This document shows positions 20,732 to 28,165 of a stretch of 64,000 nt of DNA, in pieces. A program made the translations under genes and the position numbers. Location: the NCBI GenBank assembly GCA_902776305.1, contig CACYPS010000013.1:47657-111656 (forward strand). Direction: 5' to 3'. The notes below the pieces were generated by a model, which did not search any database, was not told the DNA's origin, and was given only the letters and a program-made list of their open reading frames with translations. This DNA comes from an uncultured Lachnospiraceae bacterium. GTDB lineage: Bacteria > Bacillota > Clostridia > Lachnospirales > Lachnospiraceae. How positions within the stretch are numbered: the first letter of the stretch is position 1; each line of letters opens with the position of its first letter.

Positions 20732-21667
20732 TTACTCAAGTCCGATTGTCTCATCCAGTCCGAGCATAATGTTCATATTCTGGACGGCTGCACCGGAAGC
20801 TCCTTTGCCGAGATTGTCAAATAGAGCTGTCACGCTCGTCTGATCCTCATAACCGCACACGACAAGCTGAAGATGGTTCGTGCCGGCAAGTGCATTTGCA
20901 TAAACCGTTCCCTGCTTTGCATCATATGGGAGAACCGTTACAAAGTGCTCATCCGCATAATAGCTCTGAAGATTTGCGCAGATTTCCTCCGCTGTCGGCT
21001 GACCGGGAAGGAGGCGGTTCTGAAGCATGATCGTGGTAGCCATTCCCTTGTAATAGTCGTCGACGATTGGCATGAAGACCGGCGGGTAAGTGAGTCCCGT
21101 GACTTTCTGCATCTCCGGAATGTGCTTGTGCTTCAGCGTCAGTCCGTAGATGCCGGGTGCTGAGAGCTTTTCTTCCCGGTCCTGTGCCTCATACTGGGCA
21201 ATCATCTTCTTGCCACCGCCGGAGTAACCTGTCAGCGAATAGCAGGTGACCGGGTAATCTGCAGGCAGGATACCCATCTTTACGAGCGGTGCGACAGAGG
21301 AGATGAGTCCGGTTGCATGGCAGCCGGGATTGGCGACACGTTTGCCTGCTGCGATTGCCGCGCGCTGCTCTTTGGAGAGCTCCGGATAGCCGTAGACCCA
21401 GTCATCGGATGTGCGGTGGGCCGTAGAGGCGTCGATTACGCGCACATCGGGATTCTCTATCAGGGAGACAGCTTCAATCGCGCCTGCATCAGGCAGACAG
21501 AGAAACACGATGTCTGCGCTGTTGAGGAATTTTCTGCGTTCGTCCGTGTCATGCCGTTTATCCTCGTCGATGCGGAGAAGTTCGAGGTCAGTTCTGTTTC
21601 CTATTCTTTCATAAATCTGAAGGCCGGTGGTGCCGACCTGACCGTCTATATATACTTTTGTTTTCAT
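20732..21667 (-). CDS. argC: N-acetyl-gamma-glutamyl-phosphate reductase
   Basis: 311 residues, AGGAG site on the minus strand. It has the N-terminal NADP-binding start YIDGQVGTTGLQI and active Cys in NPGCHATG (~115), with HKHIPEM of the ArgC family. This is the shorter ArgC class (about 310 rather than 345 residues). It performs the third step of ornithine/arginine synthesis. It stands alone here; other arginine genes in the window are argF (38292) and carB. Confidence 0.95.
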   Translation of the reverse strand: MKTKVYIDGQVGTTGLQIYERIGNRTDLELLRIDEDKRHDTDERRKFLNSADIVFLCLPDAGAIEAVSLIENPDVRVIDASTAHRTSDDWVYGYPELSKEQRAAIAAGKRVANPGCHATGLISSVAPLVKMGILPADYPVTCYSLTGYSGGGKKMIAQYEAQDREEKLSAPGIYGLTLKHKHIPEMQKVTGLTYPPVFMPIVDDYYKGMATTIMLQNRLLPGQPTAEEICANLQSYYADEHFVTVLPYDAKQGTVYANALAGTNHLQLVVCGYEDQTSVTALFDNLGKGASGAAVQNMNIMLGLDETIGLE

Positions 21668-21854
21668 GGTAATCTCCTGTGATGTGAACTTTGGTATCGA
21701 TTATAACATTTCAGGCGAGGAAGTGCATCTTTTTTATCTCAGCGTGAGAAGACACTGTATCTGAGACCTTGGGTCATGTCAAACTCGCCTCAGTGGGATA
21801 TACCTGTATCACAATAGTTAGCTGTTGCAATTTCTCAGCAGGATACGGTTAGTG

Positions 21855-21883
21855 TTGGCTCTCTTTTTTCAGGGGTTTATAAT
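21855..21883 (+). promoter_or_regulatory. Promoter of the isolated feoA-like unit
   Basis: TTGGCT (21855-21860), 17-base spacer, TATAAT (21878-21883). GGTTAGT (21847-21853) sits just upstream of the -35. The predicted start (~21890) falls on the first bases of the folded leader. Confidence 0.7.
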
Positions 21884-21887
21884 ATAT

Positions 21888-21964
21888 CTTATCAGAACCT
21901 GCGAAGCAGGTTCAGCAGGATTCACGCAGTGAAGCCTGCGTTAGCCCCGTCAGGGGCTGATAAG
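21888..21964 (+). ncRNA. Folded leader RNA with four-way junction (riboswitch-like), unidentified class
   Basis: Closing stem CTTATC (21888-21893) / GATAAG (21959-21964) encloses three arms: AACCTGC/GCAGGTT with a GAA loop (21896-21912), GCAGGaTTCA/TGAAgCCTGC with a 5-base loop (21915-21939), and AGCCCC/GGGGCT with a 4-base loop (21943-21958). Transcription is predicted to begin at its 5' edge and the FeoA-like start codon is ~100 bases downstream. A T-run lies at 21998-22003 without a good terminator stem. Known iron/cobalt/nickel (NiCo, czcD) riboswitches also use a four-way junction, but I cannot confirm membership. Confidence 0.55.
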
Positions 21965-22062
21965 ATAACGAGCGACAACGCGCAGCTGTTCCGATAGTTT
22001 TTTAGATATACGCTGTATGTCGACGGCAATGATATTCTGCTTAAGAGAATGGAGGTATGACC

Positions 22063-22281
22063 ATGGTCAGTTTACAGAATGCCAAAGAGGGCGGACGCTA
22101 CAGAGTAACCTGGCTTCTCGGAACCTATGCCGGATATCTGCATGACACCTGGGATCTTTGCATAGATGACTGCCTCAGTGTTCTTGCAAATAACGGAAGC
22201 AGCCTGATCATCAGATTCAACGGACGTAAGGTAGCCATGAGTTCGGATATCGCGGGCTGTGTAAAGATGGAGCCGGTGTGA
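22063..22281 (+). CDS. Divergent FeoA-like protein
   Basis: 72 residues from ATG 22063, seven bases after GGAGG; ATG 22057 is too close to that site. The pattern SLQNAKEGGRYRVTWLL...LCIDDCLSVLANNGSSLIIRFNGRKVAMSSDIAGCVKM follows the SH3-like FeoA fold, but the usual LDLG/GDP motifs are absent and three Cys are present. It has its own promoter, folded leader and terminator (22428-22465), so it is expressed apart from the feoA-feoA-feoB operon. A regulatory or iron-sensing partner of FeoB is an inference. Confidence 0.7.
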   Translation: MVSLQNAKEGGRYRVTWLLGTYAGYLHDTWDLCIDDCLSVLANNGSSLIIRFNGRKVAMSSDIAGCVKMEPV

Positions 22282-22427
22282 GATAATGCTAATTATGCGA
22301 ACTTTTGTCCCTTCAAGGCAAAATTATGTTGAGACGCATTAAAACGTTATGGTGTGTAAAGTTTTTGTAAATAATTGAATATCCCGGTCTTTTTCAGAGC
22401 AGCAAAATAGAAAAAGGGTGATTATAA

Positions 22428-22465
22428 ACCGAAGGCGAGCTTAAGAAGCTCTCCCTCGGTTTTTC
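22428..22465 (+). terminator. Terminator of the isolated feoA-like gene
   Basis: ACCGAAGGCGAGCTT pairs with AAGCTCTCCCTCGGT, then TTTTTC. Between 22285 and 22427 I see nothing else. Confidence 0.85.
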
Positions 22466-22535
22466 TTTTGCGCAAAAACGGGCAGGATTTTCCTCAGGAA
22501 AGAAGTGAAAATTTCGGATAAGTTAGTACAGACTA

Positions 22536-22564
22536 TTGAAAATTCCGGTTAGTTAGTTTATACT
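22536..22564 (+). promoter_or_regulatory. Promoter of the feoA-feoA-feoB operon
   Basis: TTGAAA (22536-22541), 17-base spacer holding GGTTAGTTAGTT, TATACT (22559-22564). GATAAGTTAGT lies just upstream (22518-22528). GTTAGT boxes overlapping the promoter suggest an iron-responsive operator. Confidence 0.65.
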
Positions 22565-22687
22565 ATCATGTGATAAAAAGCTAAATAATAAGGCGAAGAC
22601 GATTTCTTTCATAAATTAGTTGCATTTAATATAAAGAATACTATTTTAAGAGGAGATTGTAATGTGCCGGAAGGAAGGAGGTTATAT

Positions 22688-22906
22688 ATGCCTTTAAGAC
22701 TGGCTGATTTGAACAAAGAATATGAAATTATGCGCATCGGCGGCAGTGCGGAAGTTAAGCAGCATCTTGCCGATCTGGGATTTCATGTAGGAGCGAAGGT
22801 CATTGTTGTTTCCAGATCCGGCGAAGGTATGATCGTGAGCATTAAGGGCTCCAGAATAGCGGTCGGTAAGGATATGGCCAATAAGATATACATCAGTGTG
22901 GGATGA
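22688..22906 (+). CDS. feoA: FeoA family protein, first of operon
   Basis: 72 residues; ATG 22688 follows GGAAGGAGG. FeoA features: HLADLGFHVGAKVIVV and IKGSRIAVGKDMANKIYI. The central GDP(I/M)-type loop is shortened to GEGM. It is a small cytoplasmic SH3-like partner of FeoB. A second FeoA (23011) and FeoB (23313) follow on the same strand. Confidence 0.9.
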   Translation: MPLRLADLNKEYEIMRIGGSAEVKQHLADLGFHVGAKVIVVSRSGEGMIVSIKGSRIAVGKDMANKIYISVG

Positions 22907-23010
22907 CACCCGTCTCTATAGGCGTTGGACAACAAACTCCCGCGACAAGGCTCACGAGCGAGACTTGAAGTGTAGTCGGGAGCATTTCGATAAGTAATGA
23001 GGAGGAAGAT

Positions 23011-23229
23011 ATGACACTGAAAGATGTAAGCGTAGGACAGACAGTAAAGGTTAAAAAGCTCACCGGTTCAGGTCCGGTCAAGCGCCGTATCATGGACATG
23101 GGAATCACGAAGGGTGTGGAGATTTATGTTCGAAAGGTTGCTCCCCTGGGAGATCCGATGGAACTGAAGGTTCGCGGATATGAGCTTTCAATCCGCAAGG
23201 CGGATGCTGAAATGATCGAAGTGGAGTAA
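23011..23229 (+). CDS. feoA: FeoA family protein, second of operon
   Basis: 72 residues of classical FeoA: RRIMDMGITKGVEIYVRKVAPLGDPMELKVRGYELSIR in outline, with GAGGAGG upstream. It is more canonical than the preceding FeoA and closely resembles the FeoA domain of the fusion at 12650. The 104 bases between the two genes hold a CTCCCG/CGGGAG hairpin (about 22937-22982). Confidence 0.95.
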   Translation: MTLKDVSVGQTVKVKKLTGSGPVKRRIMDMGITKGVEIYVRKVAPLGDPMELKVRGYELSIRKADAEMIEVE

Positions 23230-23312
23230 TAAGGATACCCATGCTGTAAAGGCAGAGTGTTCAAGTACATAAACAGCGGATAATCCTGTTGGAATTAATG
23301 GAGGAATATAAA

Positions 23313-26779: not shown

Positions 26780-27910
26780 TCACTCCAGTACTTCTGCGCA
26801 CTCCTTAAGATACTGAATAATCGGAAGATGCTGCGGACATGCGCCCTCACACTGACCGCACTGAATACATGCAGAGGGTGCGGATCCGGAGACTTCCATT
26901 TTGTAATTTCTTCGGGCGCGCTCGAGATTACCGTACATTTTGTAGATATTCATGGAACTGAAGATGGCCGGTATATCGATTCCCATCGGACAACCGCCGG
27001 TGCAGTAACGACATGCGGTACAATGAATGTGGTCGATAGCCCGAAGAGCCTCCTGTGCATTGACAATGCATCCCTGCTCAGCCTCGGTGAGAGGTGCGAA
27101 CTTTCCGTTTCCCATGTAGGATAAGTTGTCTGCCATCTGTTCCCAGTTGGACATTCCGGAGAGCACGACCATGACATTCGGGAGAGAGGCTGCGAAGCGA
27201 ATTGCCCAGGAACTCGGGCTGGGGCCGTTTTCCGTTATGTTGAGCGCATCCTTCACGACCTGCGGGGGGTTCGCCAGCATACCGCCCTTGACAGGCTCCA
27301 TGACGACGACGGGCTTTCCGTGTTTCGATGCGACCTCGTAGCATCGGCGGGACTGAACTTCAGCATCGTCCCAGTCAGCGTAGTTGATCTGAAGCTGGAC
27401 AAATTCTGCGTCCGGATGCTCGTTCAGGAGCTCATCCAGAAATTCCGGCGAGTCGTGGAAGGAAAATCCCCAGTGACGTATGAGACCTTCCTCCTTGAGG
27501 CCTTTCACATAATCCCAGATACCGTATTTATCATAGAGAGGCTTGTTGCCTTTTCCGAGTGCGTGCAGCAGATAGAAGTCGAAATAACCGGCGCCTGTCC
27601 TCTCAAGACTTATTTTGAACTCGTTTTTAGCCTCCTCCTCATTCTTCGCGGCAAAATTCGAGGCGTTGATCTTTGTGGCAAGATAGAAGGAGTCACGGGG
27701 ATGGCGCTCGACGAGGGCTTTCCTTGTCGCTTCCTCGGAACCTTCATATACGAAAGCTGTATCGAAGTATTTGCCTCCGGCAGCGAGGAACGCATCTACC
27801 ATGTCAGCAGTCCGTTCTACGTCTATGACTTCCATGCCGTTACGGCTTATTCGCGGAAGGCGCATCATACCAAATCCAAGTTTAATACAATCATTAATAA
27901 GTTTTTCCAT
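26780..27910 (-). CDS. Aldo/keto reductase with C-terminal 2x[4Fe-4S] ferredoxin domain
   Basis: 376 residues. The TIM-barrel part (~1-290) carries the AKR residues Asp in FDTAFVYEG (~50; catalytic Tyr in the same segment), Lys in ATKINAS and His in YLLHALG. Residues ~297-370 contain two Cys clusters, CTACRYCTGGCPMGIDIP and CIQCGQCEGACPQHLP. This fused form is common in anaerobes and should couple a carbonyl reduction or oxidation to ferredoxin-like electron transfer. Substrate unknown. Single gene, divergent from the TPR gene. Confidence 0.92.
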   Translation of the reverse strand: MEKLINDCIKLGFGMMRLPRISRNGMEVIDVERTADMVDAFLAAGGKYFDTAFVYEGSEEATRKALVERHPRDSFYLATKINASNFAAKNEEEAKNEFKISLERTGAGYFDFYLLHALGKGNKPLYDKYGIWDYVKGLKEEGLIRHWGFSFHDSPEFLDELLNEHPDAEFVQLQINYADWDDAEVQSRRCYEVASKHGKPVVVMEPVKGGMLANPPQVVKDALNITENGPSPSSWAIRFAASLPNVMVVLSGMSNWEQMADNLSYMGNGKFAPLTEAEQGCIVNAQEALRAIDHIHCTACRYCTGGCPMGIDIPAIFSSMNIYKMYGNLERARRNYKMEVSGSAPSACIQCGQCEGACPQHLPIIQYLKECAEVLE

Positions 27911-28165
27911 ACGTTCACCTCTCTTTTAAGATTCGGGCAGTTGAGAAACTCTACACACGATGGAATTTATGCTTATGTAATTACGTGGAGTGCAGTGCTG
28001 CTCATTTAATCAAATTGCGGCCGATAAATCGGTCTTTTATCGGGAGTTGCTGCGCAATTTCCGATCCGATTAGATATATTATACAATATTTGTGCCGCAT
28101 TTTATTGTATAAACTATTATTTTTAAGGTATTATTACAGGTAGGGAAACCTTTTGGAGGCTTAAA

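Follow-up and report, generated by a model that had tools for sequence, protein, structure and literature searches.

A structured leader before a FeoA-like gene in a Lachnospiraceae genome is probably a copy of a mobile repeat with insertion sites 3′ of −10-like sequences

Results

The FeoA-like locus

The window (the whole 64,000-nucleotide stretch that we analyzed, from an uncultured Lachnospiraceae bacterium; all window coordinates refer to it) encodes three FeoA-like ORFs in a row (22057–23229), ahead of a long ORF that is FeoB-like by eye. The first (22057–22281, plus strand, 74 amino acids) is divergent: the FeoA gene that an earlier, sequence-only reading had placed here is retained as an ORF with a subthreshold match (18.2 bits; the Pfam cut-off is 23), and the two FeoA ORFs behind it score above the cut-off. 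A different dispersed repeat (22883–22975), with two halves, a variable spacer and many genus-wide matches, lies behind the second FeoA ORF and ahead of the third. A terminator had also been expected after the first ORF; a strict terminator scan of 21660–22700 returned none, and what can be seen by eye is an imperfect, terminator-like hairpin 3′ of that ORF (approximately 22427–22469) that is followed by TTTTTCTTTT.

On the plus strand upstream of the first ORF, a promoter scan of 21660–22700 identified a −35-like hexamer, TTGGCT (21855–21860), that is separated by 17 nt from a −10 hexamer, TATAAT (21878–21883; 10/12 matches for the pair). Because this region contains 5 promoter-like sites (2.2 ± 1.4 in shuffles), the match alone is weak evidence for a promoter. 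As the sequence-only reading had recognized, a structured RNA directly follows the TATAAT: in the RNA fold of 21885–21967, a 9-bp closing stem (P1; 21885–21893 paired with 21959–21967) encloses three arms, that is, the RNA forms a four-way junction. Arm 1 (21895–21902/21906–21913) has 8 bp instead of the 7 bp first proposed; arm 2 (21915–21919 and 21921–21925/21929–21933 and 21935–21939; 10 bp with a single internal mismatch) and arm 3 (21943–21948/21953–21958; 6 bp) have the lengths previously given. The folding energy is −46.9 kcal/mol (shuffles, −22.3 ± 3.3 kcal/mol; z = −7.55; none of 200 shuffles equals it). In a longer fold (21885–22070) the junction is kept in the centroid structure, and the minimum-energy structure has P1 partly open. 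With the usual promoter spacing, the first transcribed base is presumably near 21890, a few bases within P1, and not at 21888 as originally suggested. The FeoA-like gene probably has a promoter followed by a structured leader.

The same insertion, with the same promoter (identical hexamer and 17-nt spacing), is present at the identical locus of G309, a relative that is ~92% identical to the window's own genome (G000) at the feoA locus. This is as far as a partial run of a check proposed with the original reading, the occurrence of the structure before other feoA-like genes, was positive: among the matches listed for 42 genomes of the genus, only G000 and G309 cover the first FeoA-like ORF at the DNA level. 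Between these two genomes the ORF has three codon differences, two of them silent.

The comparison of G000 and G309 also bears on a possible function of the leader. P1 and the arms have diverged less (1 substitution in 82 positions) than the upstream flank (19 in 217; p = 0.018); conservation is poor in the remaining leader sequence, where 89 positions have 19 substitutions, with 19 gap columns in addition. As judged from these sequences, the low divergence could reflect either gene conversion or function. If function, a mobile repeat might have been co-opted here to adjust FeoA expression in cis, as part of the leader (by mRNA stability or attenuation), in agreement with the retention of both repeat and promoter in the two genomes and with the junction in the centroid of the longer fold. 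However, homogenization among near-identical copies (described below) may explain the low divergence, and the remainder of the leader does not share it, so we regard co-option as unlikely.

Copies of the leader before unrelated genes

The sequence-only reading had proposed that the leader is a metal-sensing riboswitch and had pointed to the four-way junction of the NiCo riboswitch. NiCo riboswitches (RF02683) are four-way-junction RNAs that stand before metal transport or efflux genes. At gathering scores, Rfam has no match on the element (the sole match in the window is to a tRNA at another position); when the search of 21650–23300 was extended to E = 10, seven subthreshold matches were obtained, NiCo not among them, and the one that overlaps the element (BMV3_UPD-PK1, E = 5.2, minus strand) is at chance level. 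As a positive control, the same kind of search recovers a NiCo riboswitch with 52 bits in locus L186 (5226–5305), a Lachnospiraceae MAG sequence that is unrelated to the repeat.

When G000 was searched with 21850–22000, six matches were obtained: the locus itself, four with 95–99% identity, of which two belong to a single array, and a short match with 87%. Near-identical sequence (95–100%) thus accounts for five matches at four loci, located before unrelated genes. One of these loci, L003 (G000:C1:307115–307337, minus strand), is a two-unit array before a gene that was read by eye as smpB and whose product we take to be SmpB; an Rfam search found a tmRNA in the same locus.

These copies argue against the riboswitch. 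A metal sensor, NiCo-like or new, that controls FeoA would account for a four-way junction in the leader of a FeoA-like gene; however, Rfam has no match at threshold (with NiCo recovered elsewhere), near-identical copies precede unrelated ORFs, one of them the presumed smpB, instead of the metal genes that NiCo riboswitches accompany, the number of arms inside P1 differs among relatives, and 4 of 16 compared sites are free of the element in G309 (vide infra). We therefore reject the riboswitch, which we consider extremely improbable; nothing here points to ligand sensing.

Two types of one repeat

In G000, the pattern TATAATRTATCTTATCNG (≤2 mismatches) has 17 matches, a few of which are chance-like; the reversed control has none. 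Apart from the copies described above (type B; 134 bp per unit in arrays), most of the true matches belong to the more abundant type A, a unit of ~95 bp that consists of three successive hairpins. TATCTTATC(A/G)G is the left end of both types, and the right end of some type B copies resembles that of type A. In the window, the repeat extends beyond 21967: a remnant of its right part, that is, ACGAGCGACAA followed by a degenerate right-end hairpin, occupies 21968–22003 (plus strand; outer limit, ~22003, by eye). This right part is shortened, resembles the right end of copy L002 and is longer in G309. The window contains a second copy, an incomplete type A unit on the minus strand (28007–28076) that is preceded on its strand by TATAAT (28083–28078) and points at an ORF (26780–27910, minus strand) that is aldo/keto-reductase-like by eye.

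The repeat forms head-to-tail arrays, and type B sites differ in array size: L003 has two units compared with three (the last shortened) in L252, and L004 has one compared with two in L258; the L003 site has three units in G309, the last shortened. The repeat is, then, short, dispersed and multi-copy, as a MITE is.

Covariation, which had been suggested as a check on the structure, was found for the related type A and was nearly lacking for the window's own type B. In 103 aligned type A units (96 distinct), 90.8% of the cells in the three hairpins are paired, and 243 cells are changed on both sides (80 in shuffles; ≤49 when the partners were slid by 1 to 3 columns). The structure was set by hand, and because the model used for the alignment contains helix 1 and part of helix 3, these counts lean toward the modeled helices; it contains neither helix 2, the weakest (75% paired), nor the outer portion of helix 3. 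When 13 type A units were folded automatically to a consensus, the central hairpin was lost. In the aligned sequences, the type A hairpins are maintained through compensatory change. Type B has hardly any covariation (a single P1 pair, by eye); the copies in G000 are too alike for such a test.

A covariance model built from 13 type A units, with the left flank limited to two bases, matched sequences in 12 of the 42 genus genomes. Scoring was limited to 101 candidates per genome, and the matches numbered 100 in G338, 48 in G319, and 30 each in G000 and G309. From the matches listed, we took 100 regions for analysis, leaving out those in G307, G317 and G209, a single one in G331, and three that lie close to contig ends (G338, G309). 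G196, from another genus of the family, contains a related three-hairpin unit with altered stems.

Relatives of type B were found by alignment in Eubacterium ruminantium and in MAGs labeled Clostridia or Lachnospiraceae. Common to these relatives are TATCTTATC(A/G)G and its partner strand, mostly followed by GATAACGA; the arms within P1 vary. The scan that found them demanded TATAAT, so they are uninformative about the insertion target. The pattern scans matched at least 115 genome-contig stretches and 48 viral ones; among the matches listed, the partner palindrome lies within 110 nt in 12 of 163, none of them viral (in one of the 12, L127, it is 79 nt away). L092, L108, L116, L158 and L181 are among the cut or changed relatives that we recognized by eye, and the remaining pattern matches look like chance. 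In a search of other genera for type B with CYGATAAGATAACGA, 6 of 397 genomes matched, and at the five places outside G000 no repeat was seen by eye. A phage or plasmid origin was rejected: blastn found no match to the repeat in 50,697 phage and 72,556 plasmid records.

The insertion target

We examined the left flanks of 97 type A arrays (88 when near-identical left flanks were removed), a set that left out arrays without an intact left end in the model match, those shorter than 70 nt, and those too near the contig start. The flanks were collected without using the flank in the selection, and they read ATAATA followed by the element start (T/G)ATCTTATC; ATAATA is the consensus over the 88 non-redundant array starts. 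TATAAT occurs within 12 nt of the start in 17 of the 88 (0.28 expected); the other 71 are not at an exact TATAAT and are located at looser, ATAATA-like sites. ATAAT abuts the element in 33 of 95 copies, and the base before it is T in 22 of these 33 insertion sites, compared with 102 of 415 ATAAT occurrences in surrounding DNA (p = 4 × 10−7) and 26 of 68 in the intergenic background (p = 9 × 10−4). In G000, the type B insertion sites likewise start after TATAAT or AATAAT, the inner array unit excepted.

To compare occupied and element-free sites, 20 anchors were sent to G309; 16 loci were usable, giving 16 G000 sites. The element is present in both genomes at 10 sites (at L041 only partly) and absent from G309 at four; two (L050 and L002) are uninformative. 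The four G309 sites without the element still hold TATAAT or AATAAT. At L037, where G000 also has a truncated second unit, G309 reads GTGTATAATAGATTTT and G000 reads GTGTATAATA followed by GATCTTATCG. At L034, G309 has AGGTATAATAGTATTAG and G000 has AGGTATAATA followed by TATCTTATCGG; the right flank has diverged and the right junction is unclean. At L033, the corresponding sequences are CACAATAATATAACT in G309 and CACAATAATA followed by TATCTTATCGG in G000, with a gap that exceeds the element. At L048, G309 has TATAAT and then other sequence in the place of the element. The repeat thus shows the insertion polymorphism of a MITE, with imperfect junctions.

Since the box is present at element-free sites, it is the host target. 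A promoter carried by the element was therefore rejected, also because TATAAT is missing from 71 of the 88 type A arrays. The repeat is dispersed, multi-copy and arrayed, and the ATAATA-like sequence on its 5′ side also occurs at element-free sites. The window copy has no element-free counterpart because G000 and G309 both hold element and promoter; by analogy with the element-free sites, its TATAAT (21878–21883) would be host sequence, that is, both −10 hexamer and insertion target.

As to the terminal inverted repeats and target-site duplication of a MITE, an ATAATA-like sequence is found on both sides of the element, yet the right copy pairs and co-changes with an internal strand. In 61 single insertions, the left and right sequences agree slightly more often than by chance at position −1 (75%; 64% expected; p = 0.0025), at −3 (p = 0.049) and at −6 (p = 0.026), among 32 offset-position tests.

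Copies at apparent promoters

Direction relative to the downstream gene was counted for 74 of the 95 copies (14 overlap a long ORF and 7 have no callable neighbor). Copies behind TATAAT point at the downstream gene in 18 of 21 cases (14 expected), those behind ATAAT in 7 of 10 (6.5 expected), and the others in 25 of 43 (24.5 expected). When two genes are corrected (that at L003, by eye smpB, and the short FeoA-like ORF at L001), 20 of 22 TATAAT copies are co-directional; in same-strand gaps the ratio is 11:2 (p = 0.011) with these corrections and 10:2 (p = 0.019) by the automatic calls. At 16–18 nt, the −35-like hexamer of the TATAAT class scores a mean of 3.09 of 6; shifted spacings give lower scores, 2.43 and 2.39 (p = 0.0025), as do the other copies, 2.64 (p = 0.015). 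An extended −10 (TGn) precedes TATAAT in 8 of 23 copies, compared with 8 of 72 (p = 0.013).

These statistics indicate that the exact-TATAAT targets usually resemble a real promoter −10, with the repeat co-directional with the gene; given the co-direction and the enrichment of −35-like and TGn sequences, a minority of copies, including that in the window, are at apparently real −10 boxes. The excess at promoters may reflect a preference of the enzyme or selection that keeps such copies. In a more specific proposal, a single-strand-DNA enzyme would insert the repeat behind the −10 on the unpaired non-template strand of the open complex, so that active promoters would be the target and each jump would create a new structured leader; we offer this as a speculation that is rather unlikely to be correct.

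The same observations bear on the idea that each copy is a gene for a small trans-acting RNA with its own promoter, the downstream genes being incidental. The TATAAT right before the stem, the stable multi-copy fold and the conserved GATAACGA that follows P1 in the majority of type B relatives would agree with such genes; however, TATAAT is present without the element and missing from most type A copies (71/88), the strict scan found no terminator after the window copy, and TATAAT copies are co-directional with the next gene. We consider small RNA genes very improbable.

Discussion

A mobile repeat as a probable leader

We consider it likely that the structure in the FeoA leader is the left domain of one type B copy of a mobile, non-autonomous repeat, whose insertion sites lie 3′ of −10-like sequence and which forms the mRNA leader where it has landed at a promoter. 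The repeat would move as DNA, probably via its hairpin ends, and insertion would occur 3′ of ATAATA-like sequence, with TATAAT boxes as favorable targets. Insertion at a promoter would leave the −35 and −10 in place, with the element replacing the start region. Before the FeoA-like gene, the repeat appears to have landed right behind the −10 box, so transcription would start a few bases into P1, with the folded repeat as the 5′ leader; the promoter kept in two genomes, the folding leader and the conserved ORF fit this model.

Mobilization would require an enzyme that acts on the hairpin ends, perhaps, as a guess, an IS200/IS605-like HUH Y1 transposase. Among 34 Y1 loci in seven genomes, none encodes a transposase with the ends of the repeat, and a Y1 partner was rejected for the loci examined; for the one transposase family that was examined, the matching-end partner of a MITE is thus lacking. 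A copy of the repeat lies within 1.5 kb at 2 of the 34 loci. The nearest, ~0.2 kb away at L459, is outside the transposase element because the same transposase gene occurs in L461 without the copy.

Relation to known systems

By analogy, the repeat would work like BOX or Correia elements; we file it with none of the known families. BOX elements of Streptococcus pneumoniae have boxB modules between boxA and boxC; like the repeat, they are small, interspersed, modular and folding, with a variable number of modules, occur upstream of genes and are reported to alter expression (PMC3049150), a likeness of architecture. They belong to another genus and apparently have another layout, and they are reported to be over-represented between convergent genes (PMC3049150), whereas the TATAAT copies of our repeat point with the gene. 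Correia elements of Neisseria are likewise small non-autonomous repeats that are often upstream of genes (PMC10969869; PMC2649163), with one copy described immediately downstream of the mtrCDE promoter (PMC10969869); however, their ends are described as supplying promoter sequence (PMC10969869; PMC2649163), whereas here the −10 box is already present at element-free sites. IS200/IS605-type elements transpose as single strands, and guide sequences determine where they are cleaved; of such features, the repeat shows hairpin ends and a target motif. With IS200/IS605 and REP/TnpA-REP systems, the repeat has in common palindromic hairpin ends and a short motif on the insertion side (PMC8266576); it differs in that GTAG, the REP/REPIN tag, is absent from the consensus of the 103 aligned type A units and in that the 34 Y1 loci hold no transposase with matching ends. 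The likeness to NiCo (RF02683) is limited to shape, a four-way junction in a leader; the repeat has no covariance-model match to it and its copies precede unrelated genes. In the open-access literature, we found no description of this repeat or of a mobile element that favors TATAAT.

The supposed riboswitch thus becomes a mobile repeat that, through landing at −10 boxes, would be the leader of several genes. Riboswitches are usually recognized by covarying stems and a position in a leader, and repeats of this kind can therefore mislead RNA discovery. Should the promoter preference be real, it would offer a natural route for a structured leader to spread among many genes, and a link between transposition and the open promoter complex becomes testable.

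Another high-copy repeat was found with the pattern TCGCGATGAAGAATA in G000 and six related genomes, often as inverted pairs ~82 bp apart (≤1 mismatch: 94 matches in G000 and 120 in G319); at several places, type A elements are inserted beside it.
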